From assembly GCA_019347945.1 (NCBI GenBank), contig JAHWKK010000011.1, positions 1 through 64,000 of the forward strand: 64,000 nt of DNA. Direction: 5' to 3'. This document shows positions 25,788 to 56,896 of the stretch, in pieces; within the stretch, counting starts at the first letter, position 1; each line of letters begins with the position of its first letter. A model generated the notes under the pieces. The model was not told the DNA's origin and searched no databases. It saw nothing but the letters and a program-made list of their open reading frames with translations. Source of the DNA: Acidobacteriota bacterium (GTDB lineage: Bacteria; Acidobacteriota; Thermoanaerobaculia; Gp7-AA8; JAHWKK01). Both the position numbers and the translations under genes were made by a program.

Positions 25788-26397
25788 TCGTTCTTCCGGA
25801 ATTCGGCTGTCGTCTGGATCAGCGCTCCCAGTCTATGAGTAACGGGAGAACTGCCGGGAGGTTTCAGATTCAAACGAGTGGCGCGGGGCGCGGGACGCGC
25901 GGCTCGGGGCTCGGGACGCTGGGCGAACGGCGTGCAAAAGGATGATTGAAGAATGGAGCATTCGTCATCCTGAGCCGCCGAAGGACGGCGAAGGATCTGG
26001 GGGCAGGTCGTGAATCGACGTAATGTCTCTTCGCATCATTCATTCACGAGCCCCCGCCCAGATCCTTCGCCGTCCTTCGGCGGCTCCTAATGAAACAACC
26101 ATGAAATTGTCGGAGTTCGACCCTTTGCAGCGCTTCGCTTGGTCTGATGTCCCAACCTGCGAGGTCCTTCGCCTGCCCGCCCGACCGCCCGCTCAGGATG
26201 ACGTCGGCTTGAGTATGCGAGTGCGGTTGTTTCTGCACTCACAGGTGTCATTTCCGCTTCACCGTCGCAAACGCGCCGGTGAATTGCTCAGGATGACGAC
26301 TGCTTCACTCGTCAATTCACTCGTCACTCGCCTCTCTTCACTCTTCTCTCTTCTCCGTTCACTCTTCTCTCTTCACTCTTCACTCTTCTCCCTTACC
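25788..26397. repeat. Intergenic region with dispersed element copy D and TCACTCTTC array
   Basis: Bases about 25960-26003 carry GTCATCCTGAGC(CGCCGAAGGACGGCGAAGG). Bases about 26058-26305 are a near-complete plus-orientation copy of the dispersed element; by eye it differs from copy B (1670-1915) at roughly two dozen positions over about 240 bases. Bases about 26310-26395 are TCACTCTTC/TCTCTTC words ending at the penicillin-acylase-family stop codon. No gene is visible. Confidence 0.75.
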
Positions 26398-38826: not shown

Positions 38827-40697
38827 GACAGCCCGAACCCCTCGAGCCAGAGCGACGCCGTGTAGGCACGCCACACCGCCAGCCCGTCGTCATGCGATCC
38901 GTAGAAGTAGTCCTCGATGAACGCCTCGAGCTTCCGCGGATCGGTGAACGGGATTTCGCCGATCGTCGAGCAGATCTGCTCGCGATGTTCACGCAGATCG
39001 ATCCATTCATTCGAGGAGACGATGGCTCGTTTGGCTCTTCGCTCCGTGACCTTTGGTGAAACGATCCCGCGCGCGGTCTCGAGAAGCACGCGCTTCCGCT
39101 CTCCCCCGGCAACCTTCAGCCTCGCCGGGAGGCGAAATGCCAGCTCGACGATCCGGTGGTCGAGATAGGGCACCCGCGCTTCGACTCCATGGGCCATCGA
39201 ATTGCGATCCTGATGCTCGAGCGTCGACGGAAGGTTGGTGCGGAACGTCTGACTGAACAGAATCGAATTGAGCGCCTCGTCGAATGGACCATCCTCCCAC
39301 CTGGCGAGAGGAGTCTCGACCGCGCCGTCGAGCCAGCCGTAGGATGGCACGCGGCGCCGGATGAGCTCTCCCCTGAGCACAGATGCCGCCATCCGAAGCG
39401 CCCACCGGCCGTCCCTCCGAGCCGCGCCGATCAGATCCCGCATTGCGGCGCGGAGCTGGCCGCGGCGGATGAGATCGACGAGATGCGCCTTTTCGTAGAA
39501 GCCGTACCCGGCGAAGATCTCGTCGGCACCGGCGCCATCGAGCACGACTTTGAGCCCGTGCTCCGAGGTCATCTGGTAGATCCGGTAATGCGCGAGGAGA
39601 TCGAATCCGAGAAGCGGTTCCCCCTGCGCCATCACGACGTCCCGCGCCAGGCTCCAGCCCTCGTGGGGACTGAACAGGTCGAAGGTCGCATCGATCCCAC
39701 CCTGCTCGATGACCGCGCGGGCGAACTCCGTTTCATCGAGTCGAGAATCCTTGTGCGCGAAGGTGAACGAGACGACCGGGCGGTCGAGCCGCGCAACCGC
39801 CAGGCGCGCGAGAGTCGACGAATCGAGCCCTCCCGAAAGAAGGATCCCGACGGGGACGTCCGCGCGCAGATGTTCGCCCACCGAGCGGCCGAGCAGCGAG
39901 CGCAGCTCCGTCACGGACTGGCCCGCGTCCGCGTTCTCGTCGACGCCCCCTTCGAGTTGCCAGAACTCGCGGAAGACCGGCGGTCTCGGGTCGCGGAGAT
40001 CGATCTCGAAAATGCTCGCAGCCGGTACGGGACCGACTCCCTCGAAAAACGTTCCGTCGCGGTCCTGCGGCGGAAGCCCTCGCATGAACTCGACGAGGCG
40101 GTAGGAGTCGACGCGGGGACCAGAGTCCGAAGCTCGCGCAACGGTTGCCGGCTCGGAGCCGAACACGATCCGCGAGGTCCCAGCCGAGACATACATCGGC
40201 TTGATGCCGAGCCGGTCGCGGCTTCCAACCAGCACACCCCGTTCGAGGTCGATGATGAAAATCGCCCACATCCCCCGAAATCTCCGGAATGCGTCGTCTC
40301 CCCACCGTTCCCAGGCCGCGAGCGCCACTTCGGTGTCGCTCCGGGTCGAGAGCTCGATACCCTCCCGTTCGAGCTCGTCCCTCAGTTCGACGTAGTTGTA
40401 GATCTCGCCGTTGAGAGCGATCCATCGTCTGCCGCGTCGCAGCGGAGCGTCCGCCCCGGGATCGAGATCGATGATCCTGAGCCGCCGGAAGGAGAGGACG
40501 AGGCGGGCCCGAGCGAGCTCTTTTTCCGGGATCGCCCTGATGAAGTCGTAGCGCGTGCCTTCCATAGATTCGGAGACGACGAGAAGTCCCTCGCCGTCGG
40601 GACCGCGGTGGCGGAGGTCGTCGTGCATCCGCGCGAGCGTGGATCGCGACAGGGGCGCTGCACCGTGACTGCGGAGGATCAGACCGATGCCGCACAT
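38823..40697 (-). CDS. asnB: Asparagine synthetase (glutamine-hydrolysing)-like protein 1
   Basis: A 624-residue AsnB-type enzyme. Starting at the ATG at 40697 gives MCGIGLIL with the glutaminase nucleophile Cys2, which fixes the start. The glutaminase half shows HRGPDGEG and NGEIYNY; the synthetase half has the ATP pyrophosphatase loop LLSGGLDSS (about residue 300) and AHGVEARVPYLDHR (about 540). In polysaccharide clusters such enzymes amidate sugars or other carboxylates instead of making asparagine. It is coupled to the formyltransferase gene. It is paralogous to the protein at 48402-50273. Confidence 0.9.
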   Translation of the reverse strand: MCGIGLILRSHGAAPLSRSTLARMHDDLRHRGPDGEGLLVVSESMEGTRYDFIRAIPEKELARARLVLSFRRLRIIDLDPGADAPLRRGRRWIALNGEIYNYVELRDELEREGIELSTRSDTEVALAAWERWGDDAFRRFRGMWAIFIIDLERGVLVGSRDRLGIKPMYVSAGTSRIVFGSEPATVARASDSGPRVDSYRLVEFMRGLPPQDRDGTFFEGVGPVPAASIFEIDLRDPRPPVFREFWQLEGGVDENADAGQSVTELRSLLGRSVGEHLRADVPVGILLSGGLDSSTLARLAVARLDRPVVSFTFAHKDSRLDETEFARAVIEQGGIDATFDLFSPHEGWSLARDVVMAQGEPLLGFDLLAHYRIYQMTSEHGLKVVLDGAGADEIFAGYGFYEKAHLVDLIRRGQLRAAMRDLIGAARRDGRWALRMAASVLRGELIRRRVPSYGWLDGAVETPLARWEDGPFDEALNSILFSQTFRTNLPSTLEHQDRNSMAHGVEARVPYLDHRIVELAFRLPARLKVAGGERKRVLLETARGIVSPKVTERRAKRAIVSSNEWIDLREHREQICSTIGEIPFTDPRKLEAFIEDYFYGSHDDGLAVWRAYTASLWLEGFGLS

Positions 40698-40840
40698 CAG
40701 CAGCGCTCCCGCGGCGAGGATCGCAATCTGATGCGTCCCGAGGAGAACTCCGGAAACGGAGACGCGCACGAGTTCGGGTTGAGGAATTTCAAATCGAGCC
40801 GAAGGGGCGTGGTAGACTGAATCCCGTTTCGAGGTCCGCC

Positions 40841-41707
40841 ATGTTCCAACGCATCACTGAAATCTATCATTACCTGGGCGATCTTCTCCCCGAAGCGGAA
40901 CCGTGGCATGGCCTGGCGCGGACAGCGATCGTGATCGCGGTATTCGGCTCGGTCGTGGTCGCGCTCGAGATCTACTATCGCCGGAACCTCTCGCGCTACC
41001 GGCGGAAGGGCTTCGCGACGGACGTGGTTTACAGCTTCTTCTATCAGGGCGGGCTCTACAACCTGCTCATTTACATTCCGGTCTTCGGCTCGCTCCAGCA
41101 GAGCCTCGACTTCGCGAGTCTGGGTCTCCTCGAATCGATCCCCGTGGTTCCGGGCTTCATCCTGTTCTGGCTCGTCGCGGACTTCCTGGGGTATTGGATC
41201 CACCGGCTGCAGCACACCTCTCCGCTCCTCTGGGCCTTCCACAGGATTCATCACGCTCCAGAGGAGATTACGTTTTTGACTTCAAATCGGAACCACGTGT
41301 TCGATCAGTTCATCGCGAACGCGATCATGTTCGTACCGATTCTGATTCTCGGCGTCCCGAAAACGGTCTGGATTCCGATGCTGATTGCCCACTCGCTGCT
41401 GGAGTCGCTGCAGCACGCGGCCCTCGCCTGGAAGTTCGGCCCGCTCTACCGGGTCGTCGTCAGCCCACTTTTCCACAACCTCCACCACTCGGCGGACGAG
41501 AACGAGTACAACGGCAACTACGCGAAGATCCTCTCTGTCTGGGATTTCGTCTTCGGGACGGCGGTGGACCGCGACGAGCTGCCCAGGCGCTACGGAATCG
41601 AGGGAGTGCAAATCCCCGATTCATTCAGAGGTCAGCTGCTGACGCCGTTCGTCGATATCTGGCGTGAACGGATTCGAACCCCGAAGAGAGTGTCCCCCGC
41701 GTCATGA
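40841..41707 (+). CDS. Sterol desaturase/fatty acid hydroxylase family membrane diiron protein 1
   Basis: A 288-residue integral-membrane oxygenase of the fatty acid hydroxylase superfamily. The histidine motifs HRLQH (about residue 127), HRIHH (about 139), HSLLESLQH (about 187) and HNLHHS (about 212) form the diiron site, separated by hydrophobic spans in the usual order. Related enzymes hydroxylate or desaturate sterols, carotenoids and lipids. It starts the plus-strand run of iron enzymes and overlaps the next gene, a paralogue, by 4 bases. Confidence 0.9.
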   Translation: MFQRITEIYHYLGDLLPEAEPWHGLARTAIVIAVFGSVVVALEIYYRRNLSRYRRKGFATDVVYSFFYQGGLYNLLIYIPVFGSLQQSLDFASLGLLESIPVVPGFILFWLVADFLGYWIHRLQHTSPLLWAFHRIHHAPEEITFLTSNRNHVFDQFIANAIMFVPILILGVPKTVWIPMLIAHSLLESLQHAALAWKFGPLYRVVVSPLFHNLHHSADENEYNGNYAKILSVWDFVFGTAVDRDELPRRYGIEGVQIPDSFRGQLLTPFVDIWRERIRTPKRVSPAS

Positions 41708-42549
41708 ACTGGTTCGAAGAGATCATCGCGACCCTGCCGGTCGGCGAGATTCCGAGCCTCACGATGAAGAGTCTCGGCTTCTACGCCGCGCTCGTGGTCG
41801 GATTCGTCGTTCTCGAGCGGGTGCTCGGGAAGGATGTTCAGCGCTATCGCCAGAAGACGGTCGCCTACGACTTCATCTACTGCATCTTCTACAACGGCGG
41901 TTACCTGACACTGATCGTCTTCCCCTTCCTCAAGATCACCGAGTGGTCACTCGCACCTCACGGAATCGATCTGCTGCCGGGGATGTCGATGATCCCGGCC
42001 GTCATCATCTTTTATCTGGCGACCGACTTCGTGTTCTACTGGTCGCATCGCGCGCTCCACTCGAAACTGCTGTGGCCGTTTCACTCGATCCACCACTCGC
42101 AGCGCGAGCTCACATTTCTGACGACGGCGCGATTCCACGTGTTTGACGTGATGTTCCTGACGCTGACGACGGCGGTGCCCGCAGTGCTTCTCGGATTCCC
42201 GAGCCAAGCCGTCTATCTGACGGTTCTGCTCATGGCGCAGGACAAGGTGCAGCACGCCAACCTCGACTGGACGTATGGCCCCCTCTACGGGCTCTTCGTG
42301 AGCCCGCGGTTCCATCGGATCCATCACTCGGCGGAGCCGGACGCGCACGGTCACAACTTCGGGCGGCTCTTCTCGGTCTGGGACTACGTGTTCGGCACGG
42401 CGCATCACAGCAAGGAAGAGCCCGCGGAGTTCGGTGTCCGGGACCTCGAGCTTCCGGAATCGTTCCGCGCGCATTTCACCTACCCGTTCCGGACGCTCTG
42501 GTCGATGTACGGCAGGCCGCGCAAGCCGACCGAGTCACGGGTCTACTGA
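41704..42549 (+). CDS. Sterol desaturase/fatty acid hydroxylase family membrane diiron protein 2
   Basis: A 281-residue paralogue of the preceding protein, with histidine motifs HRALH, HSIHHSQ, QHANLDW and HRIHHSAEPDAHGHNFG. The conserved ending segment FSVWDYVFGT corresponds to LSVWDFVFGT in the first protein. The 4-base ATGA overlap shows translational coupling; a pair may act as a heteromer or on successive positions. Divergent strand changes follow: the Asp/Asn-hydroxylase-like gene is on the minus strand 61 bases away. Confidence 0.9.
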   Translation: MNWFEEIIATLPVGEIPSLTMKSLGFYAALVVGFVVLERVLGKDVQRYRQKTVAYDFIYCIFYNGGYLTLIVFPFLKITEWSLAPHGIDLLPGMSMIPAVIIFYLATDFVFYWSHRALHSKLLWPFHSIHHSQRELTFLTTARFHVFDVMFLTLTTAVPAVLLGFPSQAVYLTVLLMAQDKVQHANLDWTYGPLYGLFVSPRFHRIHHSAEPDAHGHNFGRLFSVWDYVFGTAHHSKEEPAEFGVRDLELPESFRAHFTYPFRTLWSMYGRPRKPTESRVY

Positions 42550-42610: not shown

Positions 42611-43273
42611 TCAGTTGGCGAGGCCGAGCTTCAGCCGGATCCTTCTTGGAATCGACTGGCGGATGAAGTAGCCCGTCAGGCGGCCATGTCCCACCGGATC
42701 GCCCGCGGAGAGAAGATCGTCGAGCTCCGGCGAGATCAGAAGGTCGACCACGAGATGGATCCGGTCGCTCGCGCCGTCGTTCCGAACCGCATGGGGAAAG
42801 CGGACGTCGACGCGCCAGGTCTCCCCTTCTCTCATCCGGACGACGCGGTCGGCCACGGTGAAGGTGACGCGATCGTTGGTCTGGAGCGGGACGTGGAGCC
42901 GGACCAGATTCGGATCGATCTCCTCCATCGGGTCGGAGTGGCGGCGAATGATCCCGCCGGGTCGCAGCCGCATCAGTCTCACCCGGTTTCGCTCCCCCGG
43001 GAAACGGTCGATCGCCACCTGTAGTGCAGGGGTGCGCTCCAGCGCCTCGGTGGCCGCGAAGCCGGCTCCCCGGCTCCGCTGATTCGTCCGGTCGCCGCCC
43101 TGCGCCCAGAGCGAAACGGACTCCCACCCGCCGTTGTGGTACGGCCCCTCGTGGACCTGCCACCATTCCTCGGGAAATGGGCGAACCTCGGCCATGATGG
43201 CCGCGGTTTCGAAGTCGAGAGGCGCGCGGACCGCGATCGGGTACGGCGCCAGGAAACGATTGAGTTGACCCAT
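42611..43273 (-). CDS. Aspartyl/asparaginyl beta-hydroxylase-like iron/2-oxoglutarate protein
   Basis: A 220-residue protein with the Asp/Asn beta-hydroxylase-like fold. RRHSDPMEEIDPNLVRLHVP (about residues 111-130) carries the first metal His and a substrate or 2-oxoglutarate Arg; VRFPHAVRNDGASDRIHLVV (about 159-178) carries the second His and the Arg that binds 2-oxoglutarate. Family members hydroxylate Asp or Asn side chains in peptides or proteins. The ATG at 43273 precedes MGQLNRF; ATG at 43294 is possible. Its gene is head-to-head with the PqqD-like gene, so it may share a promoter region with the peptide cluster. Confidence 0.8.
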   Translation of the reverse strand: MGQLNRFLAPYPIAVRAPLDFETAAIMAEVRPFPEEWWQVHEGPYHNGGWESVSLWAQGGDRTNQRSRGAGFAATEALERTPALQVAIDRFPGERNRVRLMRLRPGGIIRRHSDPMEEIDPNLVRLHVPLQTNDRVTFTVADRVVRMREGETWRVDVRFPHAVRNDGASDRIHLVVDLLISPELDDLLSAGDPVGHGRLTGYFIRQSIPRRIRLKLGLAN

Positions 43274-43325
43274 GCTCCGCCTACCCTCTATCATGACGCA
43301 ACTTCTCAGGGTCCGTCCAAAGAGA

Positions 43326-43640
43326 ATGATGAGCACCACCAAATCCGATACTCGTTACCGCAGCAATCCCGCGGTGGAGGCGGCTCCGCTTCAGAACGAG
43401 TCAGTGCTCTTCAATCCGGAAACGAACCGCTTCTGCCTCCTCAATCGAACGATGGCGTTCATCTGGTCGAATCTCGAGGGCTCGCCTACCGAGCGCGAGC
43501 TGATCGATCAGGTCTGCAACAAGTATTCGGGTACGAGCCGCGAAACGGTGGAGTCGGATGTCCGAGCGGCGCTCGAATCCCTCGTTGACCTCGGCCTGGT
43601 CGCCGTGGAAGATCAATCCGTGGAACAAAGCGCTTCGTGA
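43326..43640 (+). CDS. PqqD-like RiPP recognition element protein
   Basis: About 104 residues with the PqqD fold: FNPETNRFCLLNRTMAFIW (about residues 30-48), then a helical half ELIDQVCNKY and VRAALESLVDLGLVAVED. PqqD-like proteins bind the leader of ribosomal peptides and present the core to modifying enzymes. The start is uncertain; I chose ATG at 43326, an upstream ATG at 43293 would add 11 residues and nearly touch the divergent gene. It is 19 bases before the small peptide gene, which is the expected position of a recognition element partner. Confidence 0.85.
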   Translation: MMSTTKSDTRYRSNPAVEAAPLQNESVLFNPETNRFCLLNRTMAFIWSNLEGSPTERELIDQVCNKYSGTSRETVESDVRAALESLVDLGLVAVEDQSVEQSAS

Positions 43641-43659
43641 GAAGCGAAGGAGGATAGAC

Positions 43660-43797
43660 ATGAAGGAAAGCGATGAAACTCTGAACAACGAAGCAGCCGA
43701 GGAGTACGAGGCGCCCACCGTCCGGGTGCTTGACGAAGCGGAAGTCCTGGCTGCGATCCAGATCAATGCCACCGGAACCAGTTGGTGGGTGATGTAG
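43660..43797 (+). CDS. Candidate RiPP precursor peptide, 45 residues
   Basis: A short gene with a perfect AAGGAGG eight bases before its ATG at 43660. The peptide has an acidic Asn/Glu-rich N-terminus (residues 1-15), then YEAPTVRVLDEAEVLAA (16-32), in which YxxP recalls the leader motif bound by recognition elements of lasso-peptide systems, and a hydrophobic end IQINATGTSWWVM (33-45) that is a plausible core. There is no classical lasso core Gly followed by Asp or Glu at positions 7-9, and no Cys. It lies directly between the PqqD-like and HprK-like genes, with the next gene overlapping its stop. Precursor status is inference from position and layout. Confidence 0.72.
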   Translation: MKESDETLNNEAAEEYEAPTVRVLDEAEVLAAIQINATGTSWWVM

Positions 43798-44762
43798 CTC
43801 GGATTTCGGGCAGCTGCGGCTCCTCAGGGTCACCTTTCATTCTCAAAGAAGCCTCCCCTTTCCCGTGCCGCTTCCAGCTCGGCGATGCTGTCGTGTCGAT
43901 CGAGGGTGATTCAGCTCTCGAGCGAAGGTTCAGCGCCATTCTCGGTGATTGCGCGACTGAGAAGGCCCATCGGGATCTCCCGTCCGTATCCGTGACCGTC
44001 CTCGAAGGTCGAGCTGTTCTCGCCTACCCCGGATCCCGCCTTGATCTCGGCGGGTTTCTCGTGGGGCTGATGGGAGCCGCGGCGCTTCCGGTCTCGGACG
44101 ACGCGGTCCTGCTCGGGGGAGCGAACGAGTGGCGGGGGCAGGTCGCCAACCTCGCGATCAACGTCGCAATGGCAATCCAGCCCGGCGTGATGTTCTTCCA
44201 CGCCGGATCGGTCAGCCTTTCCGGCCGGGGGGCCATGATCGTAGGGCCGAAGGGAGCGGGCAAGTCGACCCTTTCGCTCGCACTCGCCGCCCGCGGACAC
44301 CAGATCCTCGGAGACGAGCTGGCCGCCGTCCGGGTCTCGACCGGAGTTCTCCTTCCCGTGCCCCGCGCATGCTCGATCCGCCCCGGCATCAGGAGCAAGC
44401 TGATCAGACGGCGGCTCGAGGCGCTCGACGCTGAGCAAGAGACCCTGCCCGACGGTTCGATCAGACAGCGGGTGAGGCTCACCAGCCTCTTTCCCGGAAT
44501 CGAATTCTCTCCGGTGCCTCTCCACGCCGTGATCTTCCTCCGCTCGTTCGCGGGCAAACCAAGGCTCGAGCGCTTTGCTCCGACGCTGGAGGATTCGACG
44601 CTCCTTCAAACGCTTGGTGCCGGCCTTCTCCCTCCGGATCCTCTGCGCGCCTTCCGTCTGCTACGGATTCTCACCTCGAAACCCGCATATCATCTGGATG
44701 TCGGCGCGCCCGAGGCGACGTCCGCACTCATCGAACGAACGATGGAGGAATCATGTCACTGA
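43782..44762 (+). CDS. HprK-related kinase-like protein
   Basis: About 326 residues. The middle shows a P-loop GPKGAGKSTLSLAL (about residues 150-163) preceded by FFHAGSVSLSGRGAMIV and followed by GHQILGDELAAV, the HPr kinase C-domain pattern with an acidic Walker-B-like site. Related kinases accompany PqqD-like and NTP_transf_5 proteins in peptide-modification and exosortase-linked loci and in some lasso clusters, where the peptide C-terminal residue is phosphorylated. The start is TTG at 43782 or GTG at 43785, inside the peptide gene; no other start is available upstream of the conserved region. It overlaps the next gene by 10 bases. Confidence 0.8.
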   Translation: MVGDVARISGSCGSSGSPFILKEASPFPCRFQLGDAVVSIEGDSALERRFSAILGDCATEKAHRDLPSVSVTVLEGRAVLAYPGSRLDLGGFLVGLMGAAALPVSDDAVLLGGANEWRGQVANLAINVAMAIQPGVMFFHAGSVSLSGRGAMIVGPKGAGKSTLSLALAARGHQILGDELAAVRVSTGVLLPVPRACSIRPGIRSKLIRRRLEALDAEQETLPDGSIRQRVRLTSLFPGIEFSPVPLHAVIFLRSFAGKPRLERFAPTLEDSTLLQTLGAGLLPPDPLRAFRLLRILTSKPAYHLDVGAPEATSALIERTMEESCH

Positions 44763-45310
44763 CCGTACGACAGCGAGCCGAATGGATCGCCACCTTCCGC
44801 TACACCGAGGTCTTTCTCATGGAAACGCTGGCCAGATGGACCCCGACGACTCCGGAAATGGAGGTGAAAGTTCTCTTCGGCCGTCACATCTGGGAGACGG
44901 CGCAGCATGCCGATGCGCTCGGGAAACGGACCTACGAGCAGCGCGCGCCGATGCACTTCACCCAGGCTCCCGACGATCAGTTCTCGTCGTGGCTGGATGA
45001 GATGGCGACGGTCGAGGGAGCTGCCGACCGGCTCGCGGCGATGTACGACATCACGATTCCGGCGCTGGGGAAGCTCTACGATAAGTATCTCGATCTGACC
45101 GACCACCTGCTCGATGCGCCGAGCGTGAAAGTGATCGAGCGGATCCGCTGGGGAGTCGAGAGGATGACGACGGATGTGGAAGAGCTCCGCGAAAAACTTC
45201 CCGGACTCCGGGAACGCAGCGACCGGATCGCGAGTCTGCAGAAATCGCTCGAAGCGACTGACCGGTTCGTCGTCCACCGTCGCGACGTTGCCGAGGAGGC
45301 GTCGGCATGA
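44753..45310 (+). CDS. Ferritin-like protein 1 (putative diiron, short)
   Basis: A 185-residue, mostly helical protein. EVFLMETLARW and IWETAQHADALGKR (about residues 17-60) give the E and ExxH pattern of ferritin-like diiron sites; later VIERIRWGVERM (about 126-137) supplies further Glu residues but no clear second ExxH, so the site may be incomplete. Strong GGAGG before the ATG. It is the first of three consecutive ferritin-like genes, each overlapping the next, so the proteins are probably made in fixed amounts and may form a complex. Confidence 0.68.
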   Translation: MSLTVRQRAEWIATFRYTEVFLMETLARWTPTTPEMEVKVLFGRHIWETAQHADALGKRTYEQRAPMHFTQAPDDQFSSWLDEMATVEGAADRLAAMYDITIPALGKLYDKYLDLTDHLLDAPSVKVIERIRWGVERMTTDVEELREKLPGLRERSDRIASLQKSLEATDRFVVHRRDVAEEASA

Positions 45311-46116
45311 ACCGCGAAACGATCGAAATCAGAGGCTTCACTCTACGAAAGGACCCCGCCCGCGAGGAGTGTTTCACCGTCGTCCACCGCGACGTCGACA
45401 TGCACGAGTATGCGGACATGTCGCTCGTGGCGAGACAGGAGCGACTCCACCGGCACATGAACAACGAGATCGGCGGGATCGAGATCGCGGCGCAGATGCT
45501 GGTTGACTTTCCCGACGCTCCGTGGGAGCTGCGGATGGAGCTCGCGCGTCAGTGCTGGGACGAAACGCGTCACGTGGAGCTGCTCCACCGGCGGCTCGTG
45601 GAGCTGGGGGGCCACAAGGGGCAGTTCCCGATCTCCAACTTCGAATGGTGCGTGACGAATCTCCTCGACCACATTGCCGCCCGCCTGGCGCTGCAGAACC
45701 GCACCCTCGAGGCTGGGCAGATGGACATCCTCGGCAAGATCACGCGCGCCTGGCGGGAGGTCGGCGACGATGAGACTGCGCGCGTGCTCGAAGGCATTCT
45801 GGCCGACGAGATTCAGCACGTTCGCTTCGCCAACCAGTGGATTCGACGAATGGTGGAAAAGGACAGACGAGTTCTGCTCGCAGTCGCAAACGCGATGGTA
45901 ACTCTTCGAAGGGCAAACGATGCTCTTGCGCCGGAGCCCGGCGAAGTCAACAAAGTCGGGGTGCCCGTGTCGAATCCAAACAATAAGACTCTCGATGTGA
46001 ATATCACGGATCGAAAAATAGCCGATTTCACGGATGAGGAAATCGAAGTAGTGCTGCGGCAGGCGGGATTCAAGTCGATCGCGCCAACCGACAAAGGCGC
46101 AGGGGCAACAGCGTGA
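45307..46116 (+). CDS. DUF455-like ferritin-fold putative diiron enzyme 2
   Basis: A 269-residue protein. The diiron ligand set of the ferritin-like fold is visible in order: HMNNEIGGIEIAAQ (about residues 49-62), WDETRHVELL (about 85-94), LQNRTLEAG (about 130) and LADEIQHVRF (about 164-173). This matches the DUF455 group. Related ferritin-like oxidases act on small molecules and on tRNA or peptides. It starts in the stop of the preceding gene and ends in the start of the next (GTGA). Confidence 0.83.
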   Translation: MNRETIEIRGFTLRKDPAREECFTVVHRDVDMHEYADMSLVARQERLHRHMNNEIGGIEIAAQMLVDFPDAPWELRMELARQCWDETRHVELLHRRLVELGGHKGQFPISNFEWCVTNLLDHIAARLALQNRTLEAGQMDILGKITRAWREVGDDETARVLEGILADEIQHVRFANQWIRRMVEKDRRVLLAVANAMVTLRRANDALAPEPGEVNKVGVPVSNPNNKTLDVNITDRKIADFTDEEIEVVLRQAGFKSIAPTDKGAGATA

Positions 46117-46853
46117 AACCATTGCCAGAGCATCTGTTCGGCGACGAGCCAGCGCGGGATGAAAGATTTCACGTCGAGCAGAGATGGATCAATCTCGCGA
46201 ACTACGCCAACGGCGATCCGAAGAAGGAGTTCGAGTTCTTCCATCGCCAGATGAACGAGGAGATCAACGGGCTCGAGAACTCGGCTCGCTGCATCAGCGA
46301 CTTTCCCGATGTGGACTGGGATCTCCGGATGCAGCTCGCCCGGCAATGCTCGGACGAAGCCCGTCACGTCGTGATGTTCCGCGAGATTTTCGAGCGGCGC
46401 GGAGGGGAAGTCGGGCAGTTCCCGATCATCAACTTCCAGTACCGGATCATCACCCGTCTCGACTCGCTCGCAGCGAGGATGGCCGTGCAGAACCGGAGCT
46501 TCGAAGCGGACGGGCTCGATGCGATCCGCTTCGCACTCGAAGAGGCGCGCGAGAGCGGGGACGAGGAGCTGGCGACGCTTTTCGATGCGCAGCTCGCCGA
46601 TGAGATCAACCATGTCCGCTTCGCCAATCAGTGGATCCACATTCTCGCGAAGCGCAATCCGGCGGTCGTGCTGAGCGTTGCGCGGGCGCTCACCGAGGCG
46701 CAGCAGGCATTTCAGTCGACGATGGAGGGGGATACGGCAACGGTCAGGTACGAAGTCAATGATCAGGTTCGGAAAGAGGCAGGCTTCGACGAGAACGAGG
46801 TACGTCTCGCGCGAGAGGCCTCGATCCAGCGGAGGGTCGGCGGGACGTCATGA
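46113..46853 (+). CDS. DUF455-like ferritin-fold putative diiron enzyme 3
   Basis: A 246-residue paralogue of the preceding protein, GTG start at 46113. Ligand motifs are QMNEEINGLENSA (about residues 47-59), SDEARHVVMF (about 82-91), VQNRSFEADG (about 127) and LADEINHVRFANQW (about 160-173). The two paralogues share QFPI(S/I)NF and DEI(Q/N)HVRFANQWI, so they come from a duplication. They may form a heterodimer. The C-terminus after residue 210 is shorter and charged. Coupled by ATGA to the membrane protein gene. Confidence 0.83.
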   Translation: MKPLPEHLFGDEPARDERFHVEQRWINLANYANGDPKKEFEFFHRQMNEEINGLENSARCISDFPDVDWDLRMQLARQCSDEARHVVMFREIFERRGGEVGQFPIINFQYRIITRLDSLAARMAVQNRSFEADGLDAIRFALEEARESGDEELATLFDAQLADEINHVRFANQWIHILAKRNPAVVLSVARALTEAQQAFQSTMEGDTATVRYEVNDQVRKEAGFDENEVRLAREASIQRRVGGTS

Positions 46854-47950
46854 CCGAGCTGGTCCTCCCGAGCGCGAGTGCGCAGGAGAGCCCGATCGCG
46901 CCGGCGACGGCCGAAGCTGCGATCGCACGGGGCTGGATCCAGTCCCCAGCATTCGACCTGGCGCTTTTCGTTCTCTCTCCGATCGTGGGTCTCGTGATCG
47001 TATTCGCGGCCCTGGCGCATCCTATGGGGGCGATGCTCGGTGTGGCGGCGGCCTTCGCGCTCGGTATTCCGCATTACGTCTCGACGCTCACCTTCTATCT
47101 CGGTGACGAGAACCGCACGCACTATTTCAGCCGGCCACTCGCCTTCTTCGCGGCACCCGTCGTCATCTTGGGTCTCGTACTCGTCCTGCGGCTCGTCGAC
47201 CTCCACTCGCCGGTCATTATCGTGATCTTCGTCTGGAACATCTGGCACGTCTCGCTGCAGAGCGCCGGGATTCTCGCAATCTATCGCAACCTGAACGGCG
47301 GACCGGATAGCGAAAAGAGGCTCGCCAAGACGGCTCTTTTCACTCTCGGCGCGACGATGGCCTTCTGGAACCCCGCGACGTTTCCGCCACTCCACGATTT
47401 CATCGAGGGTATCCGGATCGGAGCATATCGAGCGCTGACGCTGACGCTGCTGACGGTGGCCACGACATCCGTTCTCGCGCTCGGCTGGAAGATTCTTCGG
47501 CGCAACCGGCGGATCTCGGCAGCCGAGGGAGCCTTTCTGATCACGAGCCTTCTCCTGTTCCATCCGTATCTCTGGGTCGTCGACGGCGAGCTGGCGACGC
47601 TCGCGATGCTTAGCGGGCATTTCATTCAGTACCTGGCGATTGTCTGGCTGCTGAACGCGAGAAAGTACGCGGCTGCCGAAGGTTCGCGAACCCAGCGGAT
47701 GCTGGGGGGGATCGGGCGGAATCCTGCGCTCGTGATCGGCTTCATGCTCGCGGTCGGCCTCAGCGCATGGCTGGCCTCGAGGGGCGCCACGTATCTCGGC
47801 GTGCCGATGGCGTTCGTGATCGCTCTGAACTCGCTCGCGCTGATTCACTTCCATCTCGACGGTCAGATCTGGGCATTTCGACATCCTTTCGTCCGGCGCA
47901 CGATCGGGCCGTTTCTGATGCCGGAGTCCCGCCGGGCCCGGAATGAATGA
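46850..47950 (+). CDS. His-rich polytopic membrane protein, function unknown
   Basis: A 366-residue protein with about nine hydrophobic helices. Conserved-looking histidines sit at helix edges: GIPHYVSTLTFYLGDENRTH, WNIWHVSLQ, LFHPYLW, GHFIQYLAIVWL and IHFHLDGQIWAFRHPF. This distribution recalls membrane metal enzymes such as the Brp/Blh carotenoid dioxygenase type (GxPH start), but I cannot confirm homology. It overlaps both neighbours (4 and 8 bases), so it belongs to the peptide gene cluster and could be a membrane oxidase or export component. Confidence 0.6.
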   Translation: MTELVLPSASAQESPIAPATAEAAIARGWIQSPAFDLALFVLSPIVGLVIVFAALAHPMGAMLGVAAAFALGIPHYVSTLTFYLGDENRTHYFSRPLAFFAAPVVILGLVLVLRLVDLHSPVIIVIFVWNIWHVSLQSAGILAIYRNLNGGPDSEKRLAKTALFTLGATMAFWNPATFPPLHDFIEGIRIGAYRALTLTLLTVATTSVLALGWKILRRNRRISAAEGAFLITSLLLFHPYLWVVDGELATLAMLSGHFIQYLAIVWLLNARKYAAAEGSRTQRMLGGIGRNPALVIGFMLAVGLSAWLASRGATYLGVPMAFVIALNSLALIHFHLDGQIWAFRHPFVRRTIGPFLMPESRRARNE

Positions 47951-48413
47951 GCGGCTGGCCGCGCCGGCCATGGAACTGCTGGCGCGTACGGGAAAGTCTT
48001 TTGAGGCGCCCGTCAGCGGATCCAGCATGGGCTCGACGATCCCGGAGGGATCCGTCGTTCTCGTCGTTCCATCGACTGAGCCGAGGCGGGGCGACGTCGT
48101 CGCGTTCCGCGAAGGGGAGAGGGTGATCGCGCACCGGCTCTTCTTCGCAGTCCGAGATCACCTCGTCGTGGTCGGCGACGGATACCCCGTGCCCGATCTT
48201 CCGGTTCCGCGTGAGCGCCTCCTCGGCCGGATCGAGAGAGTGAGGCGGACGGCGGAGTGGGAAGAGGTTCCCGGGCGGCCCGGGATCAATCCAGTTCCGC
48301 GACTCGCCGCGGCGATCGTCGCGCTCGCGCTGTTCATCTCGCCACTGCTGGCGAGGAAGCTCGCGGCGGGGATGATCCGGGTCCGGTCGCTGCCAGAGCG
48401 ATCAGACGGATGA
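47943..48413 (+). CDS. S24/S26 signal-peptidase-like serine protease
   Basis: About 156 residues. SGSSMGSTIPEGS (about residues 25-37) carries the Ser-x-Met pattern of signal peptidase/LexA-like proteases; RRGDVVAFREG and VIAHRLFFAV (about 49-73) fit the second and third conserved boxes, with His instead of Lys as the general base as in ER or archaeal-type enzymes. A C-terminal hydrophobic helix (about residues 117-136) anchors it. As the last gene of the coupled run it is the best candidate for cutting the leader of the precursor peptide. Confidence 0.75.
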   Translation: MNERLAAPAMELLARTGKSFEAPVSGSSMGSTIPEGSVVLVVPSTEPRRGDVVAFREGERVIAHRLFFAVRDHLVVVGDGYPVPDLPVPRERLLGRIERVRRTAEWEEVPGRPGINPVPRLAAAIVALALFISPLLARKLAAGMIRVRSLPERSDG

Positions 48414-50273
48414 CTCGCCGAACGCCTCGAACCACCGCTCGAGCGCGAGAATCATCCAGAGTCGTCTCGGATCCTCTTCGCGACGGACGAGCCGGGCGTC
48501 GAAAAGCTCGCTTCGTCCAAACCAGGGCGACTCCTGCGCGGCGACGAGGAGCGGGCGCAGGTCGGATTCGAGCCATCGCTTCTGGGGCGTACCGAAACCG
48601 AGGCTGTCCGTTCGCTCGACGATCTCCTCCGGCACGTACGGCTCGGCCACCGAATGGAGAATCCTCTTCCGCCGCCGGTCGTCCATCCTGAGCTCTGCCG
48701 GCAGCGAAAAGGCGAGCTCGACCAGCCGGTGATCAAGGAACGGAACTCTGGCCTCGAGCGAATGTGCCATCGAGTTCCGGTCGGTGATCCCGAGGACCGT
48801 CGGAATGTTCTCGAAAATGACGTCGCGCACCATGGTCCGGTTCATCGCGTCGAAAGGAAGGTCGAGATCGTCGTCATGCTCGAAAAGCTCACGTGCGATG
48901 AACCATCCCGGGAGATTCCATCGTGGAAGAATCCGGCGCCGGAGCGGAGAGAGGATCTCGCTCCGGACGAGCCGCAGCGGAAACCCGGGATCGCTCCGCG
49001 TGAACAGACCCGCGACGCGGAGAGCGTCGGTCCAACGCCGCTCCTCGGCGAGCGAGCGGACGAGCGTGGGCCGATGCCGGAGGTAGCCGGCGAAGAGCTC
49101 ATCGGCTCCCTGCCCGTCGAGCACGACCCCGACACTTTCCGCCGCGAGCCCGTGCGTCCGGTACTGCGCGGCCACCGGAAGCCCGGTTACCGGAGTCTCC
49201 TGGGCGAGGGTGATCCGGTCGAGATTGGCCGCCACCCACGCGGGGTCCATCGAGATCCGCTGGAGATCGATCGAGTATCGCTGCGCCACGGAGTTAATGA
49301 AGGGAGTCTCGTCGAGATGTCTTTCCGGTGCGTCCGGAAGAACGAATGAGAAGGACCGGCGGGTGCCATTCGAGACCGCAGCCAGCGCGGTGACGAGCGA
49401 CGAATCGAGGCCTCCGGACAGCAGCGTCCCCACGCCCACTTCTGCCGACAGGTGTTCGTTGATGGTTTCCCGCAGAAGCGAATCGAGCTGTTCGACCGCG
49501 TCGTCGTACGAGCCCTCGAATCGATCCGCGCCGAGCGTCCAGAACGTCTCGGGACGAAGCTCGACGGGATCGCCGAGACGGAATATCGCCGTTGACGCCG
49601 TGGGAAAATGCTCGATCCCCTCGAAGAACGTCCACGAGGGCCGTGGCCGCAGACCGGCGAGATAGCGGGCGATCGAGCGGCCATCGGGCGCAATCGGATC
49701 AGAGCCGGCAAAGACGATCTGTTTCGCCTCGGAGGCAAAGTCGATCGCGCCCGCGCGACGATGGACGAAGAGCGGCTTGATGCCCAGCCGGTCTCGCGAG
49801 ACGACGACTCGGCGCTTCTCGAGATCGATCAGCACCATCGCCCACATCCCGCGGAACTCGCGGAAGCAATCGGTTCCCCACTCGCGGAACGCGGCGAGCG
49901 CGACCTCCGTGTCGCTGTGCGTGGTGAACCGGTGCGAACGAGCTTCCAGACGCCGGCGGAGATCGCGGAAGTTGTAGATCTCGCCGTTGAAGGCGATCGC
50001 AAAACGGCCGTCGGGCGTGGACATCGGCTGCCGCGCACCCTCGTCGCAGTCCTGGATCCGGAGCCACCGGAAGGCGAGCGAGAGGATGACCGGAGCACCC
50101 GAGGCGGCCGCTTCGAGCTCCCCGGGAGATTCGCCGCGGATCAGCTCGAGACGCGAAGTGATCGCGAGAAACCCTTCGCCGTCCGGTCCGCGATGGCGGA
50201 TCGGGCGGTGCATCTGCAGGAGCCGGTCGACCTCGTGGCGCTCGTGCGAGAGGATCATGCTGATGCCGCACAT
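48402..50273 (-). CDS. asnB: Asparagine synthetase-like protein 2
   Basis: A 623-residue paralogue of the protein at 38823-40697. The ATG at 50273 gives MCGISMIL, with Cys2 as glutaminase nucleophile. Other motifs are HRGPDGEG, NGEIYNFRDL, LLSGGLDSS (about residue 300) and NSMAHSLEARVPFLDHRL (about 528-545). Its 3' end overlaps the peptidase gene by 12 bases in convergent orientation. In peptide clusters homologous enzymes act as cyclases or amidate carboxylates; here the neighbouring NTP_transf_5 genes and the PqqD/HprK genes make a peptide role possible, though ordinary asparagine synthesis cannot be excluded. Confidence 0.87.
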   Translation of the reverse strand: MCGISMILSHERHEVDRLLQMHRPIRHRGPDGEGFLAITSRLELIRGESPGELEAAASGAPVILSLAFRWLRIQDCDEGARQPMSTPDGRFAIAFNGEIYNFRDLRRRLEARSHRFTTHSDTEVALAAFREWGTDCFREFRGMWAMVLIDLEKRRVVVSRDRLGIKPLFVHRRAGAIDFASEAKQIVFAGSDPIAPDGRSIARYLAGLRPRPSWTFFEGIEHFPTASTAIFRLGDPVELRPETFWTLGADRFEGSYDDAVEQLDSLLRETINEHLSAEVGVGTLLSGGLDSSLVTALAAVSNGTRRSFSFVLPDAPERHLDETPFINSVAQRYSIDLQRISMDPAWVAANLDRITLAQETPVTGLPVAAQYRTHGLAAESVGVVLDGQGADELFAGYLRHRPTLVRSLAEERRWTDALRVAGLFTRSDPGFPLRLVRSEILSPLRRRILPRWNLPGWFIARELFEHDDDLDLPFDAMNRTMVRDVIFENIPTVLGITDRNSMAHSLEARVPFLDHRLVELAFSLPAELRMDDRRRKRILHSVAEPYVPEEIVERTDSLGFGTPQKRWLESDLRPLLVAAQESPWFGRSELFDARLVRREEDPRRLWMILALERWFEAFGESSV

Positions 50274-50358
50274 CATCGTGACTATAACGGGAGCGACCGG
50301 CCGAGCGAGCACGGCGGCGTTTTTCGGGAGTGTCGCGCGGAGACCGTATACTCGCAGC

Positions 50359-50560
50359 GTGGATCTGCCGCCGTCCATCTGGCAAAGACTCAACGATCTC
50401 GCCGGAAACTCCTCCTGGCCTCCGCGTCAGCCGCAAGCGATCGACGCGTTTCTCGCAAAGGCGCATTCCGAAAGGCTGATTCACCTTGCGCACGCTGCGG
50501 AATTTCGACGGCGAGCTCGGCATGGCGCTCGCGTCACGCCGAGGCCGGCGCGCGGAGGCA
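50359..50560 (+). pseudogene. Broken fragment of an NTP_transf_5 nucleotidyltransferase
   Basis: The N-terminus read from GTG at 50359 (VDLPPSIWQRLNDLAGNSSW, then ERLIHLAHAAEF) matches the intact protein at 52080 (MNLPASLWPRLNQFAGNETW, then ERLIHLAHAANF). Just after AAEF, near base 50506, one extra base shifts the frame; the next frame continues the match as DGELGMALASR against PGKLGQMLASR, after which similarity is lost. So this is a partial copy disabled by a single-base shift and truncation. It is divergent from the asparagine-synthetase-like gene. Confidence 0.72.
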
Positions 50561-50722
50561 TCGTCTTCAGGTGCGATTGGGTCCTGGCTGCGCGTTGGAA
50601 ACTCAGCTACTCAGGGTCCCGAACGGCCGCTTTCTGCTGGATGTCGTCGACGTCGGTCTCGATCAATCCCGTTGAACTGCTGCCGCGAAATCGGGTAATG
50701 TGTCCGCCTGAAGGAGTCGCCC

Positions 50723-51982
50723 ATGAAGAAAATCGTCTGCCTCGTTCTCATCTGCCTTCCCAACCTTGTCCTCCAGGCCCAGGATCGACCCCCGGAGGGT
50801 CCTGACGGTCTCGCGACAATCGTCGAGGCCGATACCCTCGCCGGACTGATCAATGGCCTCTACGGAGGTGATGGAATCCAGCTCAAAGAGTTCTTCGGCC
50901 ACGAAGCGCACTTCGAGGGCGAAGGCTTCATCCAGTTCGCGAGGACTCTTCAGTCGACACTCCAGTCGCGGTCGCTCTTTCCCATACCCTCTTCCGTCGG
51001 TGCCATCTCCTACTCGTTCAACGAACAGACGGGAACCTACGAGCGGGTCGAAGGCGCCCTCGGTCCCGTACTGGCCGAGCGTGGAACGACCAGCGGCAAG
51101 GGTTCTCTCAACATCACTCTCGGCTATTCGACTGCCGAGTTCAGCGAGCTCAACGGCAGCGAGGACATCGGTATCGTCCTGAGGCACTGCCTCCGCGAGG
51201 CATGCATCCTGAACAACGATCCCAACCTCCCGATCTATCAGGACTTCATCGATGTGACGATGAACATCAATCTGCGTACCGAAGCGGTCGTCGCATCGAT
51301 CGTCTACGGACTCACCGACGACATCGATGTCGGCCTGGTCCTCCCCTATCTTCACAATGATCTGACGGTCGAAACCAACGCGGTCATCATCAAACAGCCG
51401 GATTCGATCGAAGGCGTTCACAACTTCGACATCGAGCTCGAGACACCCCGGCAGTACGGACGGGCGAGCGCCACCGGCATCGGCGACATCATCGCGCGCA
51501 GTAAGTTCCGTCTCCCGGGCCAGCGCGCTTTCGACATGGCGGCCCTGGTCGACGTCAAATTTCCGTCCGGCAAGGAAGAGGATTTCCTCGGTTCGGGTGA
51601 CCTGACCGTCAAGGGAACGTTCGCGGCATCGAAGCGTGGCACGCGCTTCATCCCGCACGGAAACATCGGATACGAGCTGAACACGGACGACACGAGCCTT
51701 TCATTCTTCGAGTACAGGCTCGGATCCGAAGTATTCATCAATCCGCGGGTCACGCTCGCGCTCGACCTCATCGGGATCATCCGCCCGACGATCCCCGAGG
51801 AGTTCATCGTCGAGGAGCTCGACCTGCAGCTGCTCGATCGATCCGAGATCGACGGTTCGCTGGCGGCAAAGTTTCGAGTCACCGACAATGCCGTCGCCAT
51901 CGTCGATCTGCTCGTTCCACTCAACGACGGAGGAATCCGGCCGGACAACTCGATCACTTTCGGCCTGCAGTGGGGTCTGTAA
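50723..51982 (+). CDS. Outer-membrane transporter-like beta-barrel
   Basis: A 419-residue exported protein: signal peptide MKKIVCLVLICLPNLVLQAQ; many beta strands with FDMAALVDVKFPSGKEEDFL and GSGDLTVKGTFA (about residues 270-300), resembling outer-membrane barrels of the phenol-degradation MetA/transporter type. It ends in LQWGL. AAGGAG precedes the ATG. It sits between the broken and intact NTP_transf_5 copies, and its stop is followed immediately by a 34-base inverted repeat. Its substrate is unknown. Confidence 0.75.
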   Translation: MKKIVCLVLICLPNLVLQAQDRPPEGPDGLATIVEADTLAGLINGLYGGDGIQLKEFFGHEAHFEGEGFIQFARTLQSTLQSRSLFPIPSSVGAISYSFNEQTGTYERVEGALGPVLAERGTTSGKGSLNITLGYSTAEFSELNGSEDIGIVLRHCLREACILNNDPNLPIYQDFIDVTMNINLRTEAVVASIVYGLTDDIDVGLVLPYLHNDLTVETNAVIIKQPDSIEGVHNFDIELETPRQYGRASATGIGDIIARSKFRLPGQRAFDMAALVDVKFPSGKEEDFLGSGDLTVKGTFAASKRGTRFIPHGNIGYELNTDDTSLSFFEYRLGSEVFINPRVTLALDLIGIIRPTIPEEFIVEELDLQLLDRSEIDGSLAAKFRVTDNAVAIVDLLVPLNDGGIRPDNSITFGLQWGL

Positions 51983-51985
51983 GGT

Positions 51986-52077
51986 CGGGGTCGGGTCTGA
52001 ACTTGGAACTTAACTCCGAACAGACTATGGTTTTCTAACGATCTCGGAGTTAAGTTCCAAGTTCAGACCCGACCCCG
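51986..52077. repeat. 34-base perfect inverted repeat with 24-base loop
   Basis: Arms 51986-52019 and 52044-52077 are exact reverse complements; the left arm begins CGGGGTCGGGTCTGAACTTG. The loop is 24 bases and less GC-rich. It starts 3 bases after one stop codon and ends 2 bases before the next ATG. No T-run follows. It could end transcription of the barrel gene, hide the start of the next gene in its stem, or be a REPIN-type mobile extragenic element. Confidence 0.95.
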
Positions 52078-52079
52078 CC

Positions 52080-53132
52080 ATGAATCTCCCCGCCTCGCTC
52101 TGGCCCCGCCTCAATCAGTTCGCGGGAAACGAGACGTGGCCTCCGACCGAACCGCCAGCAGTCGAAAGGTTCATCGCTCAGGCCCGGACCGAGCGGCTCA
52201 TCCACCTCGCCCATGCCGCGAACTTTCCGGGAAAGCTCGGCCAGATGCTGGCTTCGAGAAGTGCGGAAACAATGGTCGCCCGAGCTGGCGTCGCCATGTT
52301 CCACGACGTTCTGAGGAAACTTGCAGAAATGGTCGATCCCATCCCGGTCATCCCGATCAAGGGGATAGCCTACGGCCTCTATCTCTACGACGAGCCGATT
52401 CTACGTCCCGGCGCGGACCTCGACGTCCTCGTTCCAATCGAGCACTACCAGGCAACCAATTCACTTCTGGAGTCGAAAGGATATCTCCGCACCTACCCAT
52501 TCGGCATCACCGGTCACCATCCCGAATATCACGAGTCGAACATCCGCTTCGGCAACGTCCTGCTCGAGGTGCATCACTCGCTGATTCAGCGAAGCCGGCA
52601 TACCGTCCCGTACGAAATGATTTTCGAACGATCGGTACCACTGACCGATCAGCCGAACGTCCGGAGAATGAGCGACATCGATACCCTGCTCGCCCACTGC
52701 CTCGGGTTCGCCAAGGAGCACTTTCAGATGACGCTCTCTCACTGGCTCGATCTCTGGCTGCTGCTCCATCAGCCCGCGATCGTCGCAGCCGACCCTGCGG
52801 AGATCATCGAAGAAGCAGAAAGTTGGTCCGTCCTGACCGGCTTTCTGAGCTCCCTCCGGACGCTCCCGTCACTCTTTCCCGAGAGCAATGACCACACACT
52901 CGTACTCGCCGCCCAAAGGCTTCCCGCCCGCTCGATCCCGCCCCGCCAGGTCCTCGCCTCGCGCAATCGAAAGAGCCGTCTCGCCCAGATCTACATCAAA
53001 TTCCGCGCGCTCGACGGCTGGACCCGACGCTGCGCCTTTGCCGTTCAGTTCCTCAGGATGCAGATCGAGACAAGGCTCGGTCTGATTGAGGAGCGCGGCG
53101 ACGAAGAACCTGGTGGCAGGGTCGTAACGTAA
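52080..53132 (+). CDS. NTP_transf_5 nucleotidyltransferase-like protein
   Basis: A 350-residue protein of the NTP_transf_5 family. The nucleotidyltransferase core is VIPIKGIAYGLYLYDEP, LRPGADLDVLVPI (about residues 93-122; acidic DLD pair) and SDIDTLLAHCLG (about 198). Homologues are found with PqqD-like and HprK-like proteins in peptide-modification and lasso-like clusters and are proposed to transfer nucleotides. The ATG lies 2 bases after a long hairpin with no visible ribosome binding site outside it, so translation may depend on coupling or hairpin opening. A broken partial copy lies 1.7 kb upstream. Confidence 0.8.
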   Translation: MNLPASLWPRLNQFAGNETWPPTEPPAVERFIAQARTERLIHLAHAANFPGKLGQMLASRSAETMVARAGVAMFHDVLRKLAEMVDPIPVIPIKGIAYGLYLYDEPILRPGADLDVLVPIEHYQATNSLLESKGYLRTYPFGITGHHPEYHESNIRFGNVLLEVHHSLIQRSRHTVPYEMIFERSVPLTDQPNVRRMSDIDTLLAHCLGFAKEHFQMTLSHWLDLWLLLHQPAIVAADPAEIIEEAESWSVLTGFLSSLRTLPSLFPESNDHTLVLAAQRLPARSIPPRQVLASRNRKSRLAQIYIKFRALDGWTRRCAFAVQFLRMQIETRLGLIEERGDEEPGGRVVT

Positions 53133-53413
53133 GTGACGAGTGAGCGGCAACGAATCACGATCCCCCGCCCAGATTCTCGCCCGCGCTCCGCCGGGCTCAG
53201 AATGACGAGTGTTGTGTCTGCGCGAAGCGACGATCATGGACGTATGTTTAGTCTCGCCACATTCGAAAACTCGTCATCCTGAGCCGCCGAAGGACGGCGA
53301 AGGATCTGGGGGCAGGCTCGTGAGTGAACAGTGAGAGCATGGAGACGTTACCTTCGCGGCGTCTCTTCTTTTTTCACTCTTCACTCTTCACTCTTCTTCT
53401 TTCACGATCCCCT
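53133..53413. repeat. Repeat-filled gap: GTCATCCTGAGC elements and TCACTCTTC array
   Basis: Bases about 53155-53213 and 53273-53311 carry the two partner short repeats also seen near 7971-8080 and 25960. Bases about 53374-53402 are TCACTCTTC units preceded by CGCGGCGTCTCTTC, the same context as at 300-340. The array ends just after the stop of the minus-strand DUF3187 gene. No gene is visible. Confidence 0.7.
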
Positions 53414-54544: not shown

Positions 54545-54778
54545 ATGAGAGACGAAATGCTTGCCGCCGTCGTTCGGCGGGCGATGGAACACCAGAGCTT
54601 CAGACGAGCCCTGATCGAGGAGCCGCGGGCCGCGCTCGATGCGCATGGCTTCGCGCTCGAGGATGAAGAGTTTCGACAGATCGAGAAGCTCGGCAGCGAG
54701 CTCGCAGCGGACGACTCCCGCGAATCGCTGGAACGGATCGCGGATCGTTTCGGAGTGCAGCCGGAAAAGTTCGCCTGA
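54545..54778 (+). CDS. Small NHLP-clan (Os1348-like) leader-type peptide
   Basis: A 77-residue protein with GGAGGA six bases before its ATG. VVRRAMEHQSFRRALIEEPR (about residues 9-28) and ALDAHGFALEDEEFRQIEKL (about 30-49) follow the pattern of NHLP/Os1348 clan proteins, where F(R)xxLlxdPxaaLxxxGfxLtxeE defines a helical leader of some ribosomal peptides. The C-terminal 20 residues (to FGVQPEKFA) would be a core if it is a precursor, but there is no Cys or Gly-rich stretch. Divergent from DUF3187 and convergent with DUF72. Function inferred from pattern only. Confidence 0.65.
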   Translation: MRDEMLAAVVRRAMEHQSFRRALIEEPRAALDAHGFALEDEEFRQIEKLGSELAADDSRESLERIADRFGVQPEKFA

Positions 54779-56752: not shown

Positions 56753-56804
56753 AGCTGACTCAACTTCATCGCGATCATAGGGTTGATCAGGGCGCCTGAT
56801 AAGC

Positions 56805-56832
56805 CGTCCGACGTGTCGGACCCGTCCGACAG
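56805..56832. repeat. Short TCCGAC array
   Basis: Three units (GTCCGACGTG, TCGGACCC, GTCCGACAGG) in the gap after the TetR gene. Same family as at 3345 and 5053. Confidence 0.6.
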
Positions 56833-56896
56833 GGCCACCGTTCACACTCGTGGCACCGATGCTGAACGCCACACACAGATCGACGGAGGTGCAGGA

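Follow-up and report, generated by a model that had tools for sequence, protein, structure and literature searches.

A conserved Acidobacteriota gene set joining a PqqD-like protein, a Trp-Trp peptide and DUF455 ferritin-like proteins: a candidate RiPP-type pathway

Related peptide systems and layout of the locus

Several described systems resemble parts of the locus studied here. Lasso-peptide clusters with a kinase and a nucleotidyltransferase, such as paeninodin, pseudomycoidin and Bradymonas bsf, share with it a stand-alone PqqD-type RiPP recognition element (RRE), a YxxPx[L/I]-like leader, an HprK-like kinase, a nucleotidyltransferase and an AsnB-family protein; in lasso clusters the kinase and the nucleotidyltransferase accompany YxxPxL precursors (PMC10368454; PMC8498205), and HprK-like kinases in such gene sets phosphorylate the precursors (PMC8498205). 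In the MNIO (DUF692) RiPP pathways (methanobactin, 3-thiaGlu, biphenomycin-like), an iron oxygenase together with a recognition or partner protein oxidises a ribosomal peptide. The biosynthesis of PQQ and of mycofactocin relies on an RRE of the PqqD type and on a single short, conserved precursor in which one pair of residues is invariant. Lastly, orphan fusion proteins of Acidobacteriota (loci L075, L076, L074) carry, head to tail in one chain, the same two domains, Fer1 and DUF455, that are found as separate proteins in this study.

The locus described here lies on contig C11 of a 3.72-Mb genome (completeness 99.65%) from a soil-type bacterium; the window is the whole stretch of DNA that was analysed, 64,000 nucleotides. 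It differs from the lasso clusters named above in having no B2 protease, no acidic acceptor and only a plain asparagine-synthase AsnB; instead it has an S24/S26-type peptidase, a pair of DUF455 diiron proteins and a Trp-Trp core. Compared with the MNIO pathways, the enzyme family and metal site are others (ferritin-like DUF455) and the target is apparently Trp-Trp, whereas the difference from PQQ and mycofactocin is that the operon has diiron proteins in place of a radical SAM partner. The orphan fusions have no PqqD, kinase or peptidase belonging to the system nearby; here the two domains are split and the DUF455 part is duplicated.

The core is a tight plus-strand operon of eight genes at 43.3-48.4 kb, encoding in order PqqD, the peptide, the HprK-like kinase, Fer1, Fer2, Fer3, the membrane protein Mem and the S24/S26-type peptidase. 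The initial annotation had remarked that nearly every gene overlaps the next, and this holds at six of the seven junctions, by 4-16 bases; all the genes it had listed were found where it had placed them (PF05402, HprK_rel_A, PF04305 twice, PF00717, PF04116 twice and others). Flanking the operon are two FA_hydroxylase genes, an Asp/Asn-hydroxylase gene, two glutamine-dependent AsnB genes, a formyltransferase gene and an NTP_transf_5 gene. Repeats of 40-300 bases, with about 70-100% identity and several of them inverted, are dispersed through the window; they lie at approximately 1577-1905, 12343-12678, 25946-26305 and 53157-53399, among other places.

Conservation of the cassette and of the precursor peptide

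A search with the Fer2 protein across 297 genomes of the phylum returned two strong orthologues (53-57% identity), each near a second DUF455 gene, and the neighbourhoods of both hold PqqD, peptide, HprK, Fer1, Fer2, Fer3 and S26 genes. With the Fer1 alignment as query, a scan of a genome collection of 85,000 species detected six loci, of which five were new; a further one, in G307, came from a profile search across the class. The distinct loci number nine: the window, L020 (the same as L024), L021, L022, L023, L025, L026, L027 with L058, and L056. The eight besides the window come from at least eight other genomes, all Acidobacteriota but for one metagenome-assembled genome (MAG) labelled Proteobacteria; this label may be wrong, since only five available genomes belong to the group in which the MAG is placed. 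Organism labels are those of the records, and the named relatives are metagenome-assembled genomes throughout. HprK, Fer1, Fer2, Fer3 and S26 are present at all nine loci and PqqD and the peptide at eight. L027 and L058 are halves of one locus whose ends overlap by an exact 141 bases, the gene order is altered in L021 (Fer2 before HprK) with the content unchanged, and the Fer2 gene of L026 has an in-frame stop near its start. The initial annotation had proposed that support would come from finding this gene order, together with a short YxxP peptide, in further genomes, and that ferritin-like genes never found with PqqD-like or short-peptide genes would refute it; eight further loci, seven with PqqD and a YxxP...WW peptide, bear out the former, and the refuting outcome did not occur.

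L025 is the sole locus of the nine without PqqD and peptide. The peptide was sought in its genome and not found, and other PqqD genes lie elsewhere in that genome, one of them beside a Transglut_core3 gene. L025 is a decayed or rearranged cassette. At 8531-10001 of L025, where PqqD and peptide would be expected, a truncated 2OG-oxygenase-like frame continues into that of HprK. Two other observations concern the surroundings of the relatives. Proteins with an HTTM domain (vitamin-K-carboxylase-like) recur around the FA_hydroxylase and Mem genes of L020 (2330-3896, 13265-17095) and L023 (6579-12903), each apparently paired with a small membrane protein; one was confirmed by Pfam and the others were assigned by eye. 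Directly upstream of PqqD in L056 (11856-13286, minus strand), a protein weakly matches Cu2_monoox_C (peptidylglycine-hydroxylase type) and cytochrome c, and a C-terminal amidation or copper oxidation step is possible there.

The gene set and its conservation are observed directly, and so is the co-occurrence of Fer1 and the peptide. Close Fer1 homologues (E below 1e-60) occur among 149 genomes of the class in G000, G042, G298, G299 and G307, and a separate search for the peptide in the same 149 genomes returned precisely these five. Of 396 phylum genomes, only G000, G042 and G026, which belong to different families, have close homologues of both; G071 gave one weak, leader-only peptide match (E 6e-4). 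If genomes were independent, the probability of this coincidence would be 1.7e-9 in the class and 1e-7 in the phylum, figures that overstate the case since the genomes are related to one another and these loci themselves went into the peptide profile.

The precursor MKESDETLNNEAAEEYEAPTVRVLDEAEVLAAIQINATGTSWWVM (43660-43797, plus strand; 45 aa; eight homologues) is preceded by AGGAGG, a good ribosome-binding site, and has a YxxP leader motif and the tail ATGTSWWVM following IQIN. In the alignment of its homologues (eight sequences), Y, P, L, Q, W and W are invariant, and the YxxP tyrosine and the FQ motif (IQ in the window) lie at a distance of 17 residues in every one of the eight. The tails range from 9 to 17 residues (ATGTSWWVM, QSMSSWWVTASMR, AAQISSAGCWWSPPAGL, AAGTHMWWG, QSMAAWWVTASMR, QSMNTWWTMGVTCPCT, QAMQTWWMAGC and QSMAAWWVTGMC); Trp-Trp is their only invariant part, and they are otherwise variable, an arrangement that suits a small WW-derived product or a binding tail alike. 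A profile built from six peptides recovered a seventh, in a Vicinamibacteria genome, that was not among the six (E 1.1e-20). Elsewhere in the window, a 77-aa ORF (54545-54778, plus strand) shows weak similarity to the Os1348/NHLP leader RiPP families (NF038399, E 3.6e-7; TIGR03793, 6e-6; Frankia_peptide, 2.6e-6; all under cut-off) and, judged by these matches, is possibly a second precursor-like peptide near the cluster.

Proteins encoded in and beside the operon

Fer2 (45307-46116, plus strand; PF04305, E 4.8e-27) and its paralogue Fer3 (46113-46853, plus strand; E 4.4e-26) belong to DUF455, a family to which Pfam assigns no known function, with scores of 95.5 and 92.4 bits against a gathering score of 34.3. 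Both follow the diiron ligand pattern E ... D-E-x-R-H ... E ... A-D-E-x-x-H, and all six ligands are seen to be intact and invariant in 18 of 18 Fer2/Fer3 sequences (E54, E86, H89, E135, E168 and H171 in Fer2; E50, E82, H85, E131, E164 and H167 in Fer3). Because the pattern is invariant in these 18 sequences, Fer2 and Fer3 should each bind two irons. For Fer1 (44753-45310, plus strand) no Pfam or NCBIfam model matches. AlphaFold2 gives a confident helical bundle (pLDDT 89), and Foldseek relates it to ferritin-like stress proteins and to TenA/CADD-like proteins at weak E values of 0.01-0.1 (probability about 1.0, TM 0.5-0.6). In a nine-sequence alignment, the canonical E / ExxH / E / ExxH ligand set is not seen among the invariant residues of Fer1, which is ferritin-like by its predicted fold only. 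The initial annotation had counted three ferritin-like proteins; the count stands for Fer2 and Fer3, which are DUF455 members with intact ligands, and extends to Fer1 through its predicted fold alone.

Other Acidobacteriota encode single chains of about 480-530 aa that combine a Fer1-like with a DUF455-like domain (L075, 9769-11232; L074, 8912-10354; L076, 9018-10607; also L070); in G503, adjacent genes encode the two. The fusion protein of L075, the only one tried, matches no Pfam model. The PqqD, HprK and S26 genes of the system were not found beside these distant Fer1/DUF455 matches, many of which lie on loci of only 3.4 kb. Because the two domains are fused in single chains elsewhere, Fer1 and DUF455 probably form one complex, in which Fer1 would be a partner subunit and not a third canonical diiron enzyme. 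We infer that the complex predates the peptide system, which recruited it, the DUF455 part being then duplicated; the free-standing fusions and pairs without other cassette genes therefore point to something else as the ancestral substrate.

The PqqD-like protein (43329-43640, plus strand; PF05402, E 3.9e-15; eight of nine loci) has a longest ORF version beginning at 43272, and homologues favour the start near 43329. At these eight loci it is encoded beside a short precursor with a conserved leader motif. It is the only PqqD of its genome, where PqqE has no match above cut-off and only generic radical SAM scores were obtained, so that it looks dedicated to this locus; with no PqqE above cut-off, PQQ biosynthesis was rejected as an assignment. 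Two lookalikes of soluble quinoprotein sugar dehydrogenases, recognised by eye, lie in the window at 348-1520 (minus strand) and 56783-58399 (plus strand), in this genome without PqqE above cut-off. The HprK-related kinase (43782-44762, plus strand; all nine loci) matches HprK_rel_A (E 1.7e-13) and Hpr_kinase_C (E 1.2e-5) and has the Walker A motif GPKGAGKS. The HPr-rel-A system of NCBIfam was rejected, since HprK_rel_A (50 bits, cut-off 200) and PqqD_rel_X (29.7, cut-off 35) both fall under their equivalog cut-offs. The S24/S26-type peptidase (47943-48413, plus strand; PF00717, E 5.4e-8; sigpep_I_arch, E 8.6e-7; all nine loci) conserves G-x-SM and HR, one Ser and one His, and is the candidate leader protease.

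Mem (46850-47950, plus strand) is a His-rich, multi-helix membrane protein with invariant H75, H133, H257 and H333, for which no Pfam model matches and a fold search gave no usable match (best E 0.5). Within the 149 class genomes, homologues at E below 1e-150 are confined to four of the five genomes with the cassette; the fifth has its cassette on a short contig. Distant Mem homologues occupy orphan positions without PqqD. Just upstream of the operon, the two genes first described as sterol-desaturase-like oxygenases both match FA_hydroxylase, PF04116: FAH1 (40841-41707, plus strand; E 2.8e-29) and its paralogue FAH2 (41704-42549, plus strand; E 2.6e-28), which we regard as accessory; FAH1 also matches an OlsE-like model at 2e-28, under cut-off. 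FA_hydroxylase is present at five of nine loci and Mem at six, including cases where they lie elsewhere in the neighbourhood.

A proposed pathway and competing readings

The best reading, to which we give a probability of roughly two in three, is a new RRE-dependent RiPP-type pathway that oxidises a Trp-Trp core, its chemistry and product being inferred. The nine-locus cassette and the YxxP...WW peptides support the view of the initial annotation that this is a ribosomal-peptide system, with modification of the peptide as yet undemonstrated. PqqD would bind the YExP leader of the 45-aa precursor and present its short C-terminal tail; both this binding and the role of the peptide as substrate are inferred. 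The Fer1-Fer2-Fer3 complex may then use O2 to oxidise the tail by hydroxylation, cross-link or dehydrogenation, most likely at Trp-Trp because these are the only invariant residues there, the identity of the residues changed being again an inference. By analogy with phosphorylated lasso peptides, the HprK-like kinase would phosphorylate a Ser/Thr of the tail, and NTP_transf_5 would possibly cap the phosphate, as in phosphorylated or phosphoglycosylated lasso peptides. Leader removal, inferred like the order of the steps and the product, would fall to the S24/S26-type peptidase, and FA_hydroxylase, Mem and AsnB may carry out late steps, either at the membrane or on the C-terminus. We count against this reading that no product or modification has been demonstrated, that L025 lacks both peptide and PqqD, and that Fer1-DUF455 stands alone elsewhere.

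These last points bear on the alternative that survives best, an unlikely one, in which the peptide stays with the diiron complex as a small permanent subunit or adaptor, and a lipid or other small molecule is the substrate on which the enzymes act together with FA_hydroxylase and Mem. The occurrence of Fer1-DUF455 without the rest of the cassette, the membrane nature of FAH and Mem, and the retention of the enzymes in L025 without peptide all fit it. However, a YxxP leader with a dedicated PqqD and a peptidase is a RiPP arrangement, and HprK-like kinases of such sets phosphorylate precursors (PMC8498205). Slightly more doubtful still is excision of the tail to give a small redox cofactor derived from Trp-Trp, much as PQQ and mycofactocin are cut from peptides. 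That the peptide is single-copy in each genome, with an invariant residue pair between variable flanks, and that oxidases and a peptidase are conserved with it across distant lineages would agree with such a product, but no candidate user enzyme was identified, there is no second peptidase for trimming the C-terminal side, and the distribution is patchy (5 of 149 class genomes). With the same low likelihood, a redox cofactor or a pigment could arise if the DUF455 complex oxidatively fused both Trp residues, which, once cut out, would be a free counterpart of tryptophan tryptophylquinone.

A divergent lasso-peptide cluster, in which AsnB closes the macrolactam and HprK and NTP_transf_5 decorate the product, is very improbable and was rejected as largely refuted on sequence. 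The PqqD, HprK-like, nucleotidyltransferase and AsnB-like proteins and the YxxP leader do match the K- and N-bearing lasso clusters (PMC10368454; PMC8498205). Against this, no Transglut_core3 protein (B2, PF13471) was found in the 99.65%-complete genome, as the initial annotation had cautioned on failing to find the transglutaminase-like leader protease of lasso clusters, nor in G042, G414 (L023) or G416 (L026); some other cassette genomes have PF13471, on contigs apart from the cassette. Moreover, none of the eight peptides has an acidic residue, Asp or Glu, in the tail after the FQ/IQ motif, a test that assumes that the core starts there. AsnB1 (38823-40769, minus strand) and AsnB2 (48402-50393, minus strand), both likely accessory, score 371 and 384 bits on the asparagine-synthase model TIGR01536 (cut-off 267), whereas AsnB2 reaches only 177 bits on a lasso cyclase model with a cut-off of 525; four AsnB proteins are over the TIGR01536 cut-off and far under those of NF033535 and NF033561. 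Close AsnB genes lie beside the cassette at five of nine loci, as do homologues of NTP_transf_5 (52080-53132, plus strand; PF14907, E 1.2e-28; likely accessory). The Asp/Asn-hydroxylase gene of the initial annotation is present and has no support as a member of the system. Least probable of all is a chance neighbourhood of unrelated genes, which could appeal to the edge genes (Asp/Asn-hydroxylase-like and beta-barrel-like) not having been found at the other cassette loci but is refuted for the core, which recurs at nine loci from several families and orders.

Two further features lie near the AsnB1 and NTP_transf_5 genes. A formyltransferase-like gene (38044-38874, minus strand) adjoins AsnB1, and the pair also flanks the cassette of L020 (34% identity). 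At 50359-50505 (plus strand), 1.7 kb upstream of the full NTP_transf_5 gene and just before the gene at 50723-51982, a 49-codon copy of the start of that gene (59% identical) is a truncated NTP_transf_5 duplicate.

A literature search linking DUF455 with RiPP, PqqD or HprK found nothing relevant, and papers on DUF455 included none on RiPPs, judged by title; most subscription papers lay outside the search, and this is weak evidence. The system is probably, and not certainly, undescribed. Its novelty, under the RRE-dependent pathway that we favour, would lie in an oxidising complex of a new type and in a new family of precursors, both inferred. Two DUF455 copies with intact diiron sites are tied here to a defined, testable 45-residue peptide and to Fer1, a new partner family. 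Should the inference hold, RiPP biosynthesis would gain a new class of oxidising enzyme, DUF455 would gain a function, and a product built on an invariant Trp-Trp would be predicted in little-studied lineages known mostly from metagenomes, where the gene set may give rise to a natural product or cofactor of a new, peptide-derived kind.
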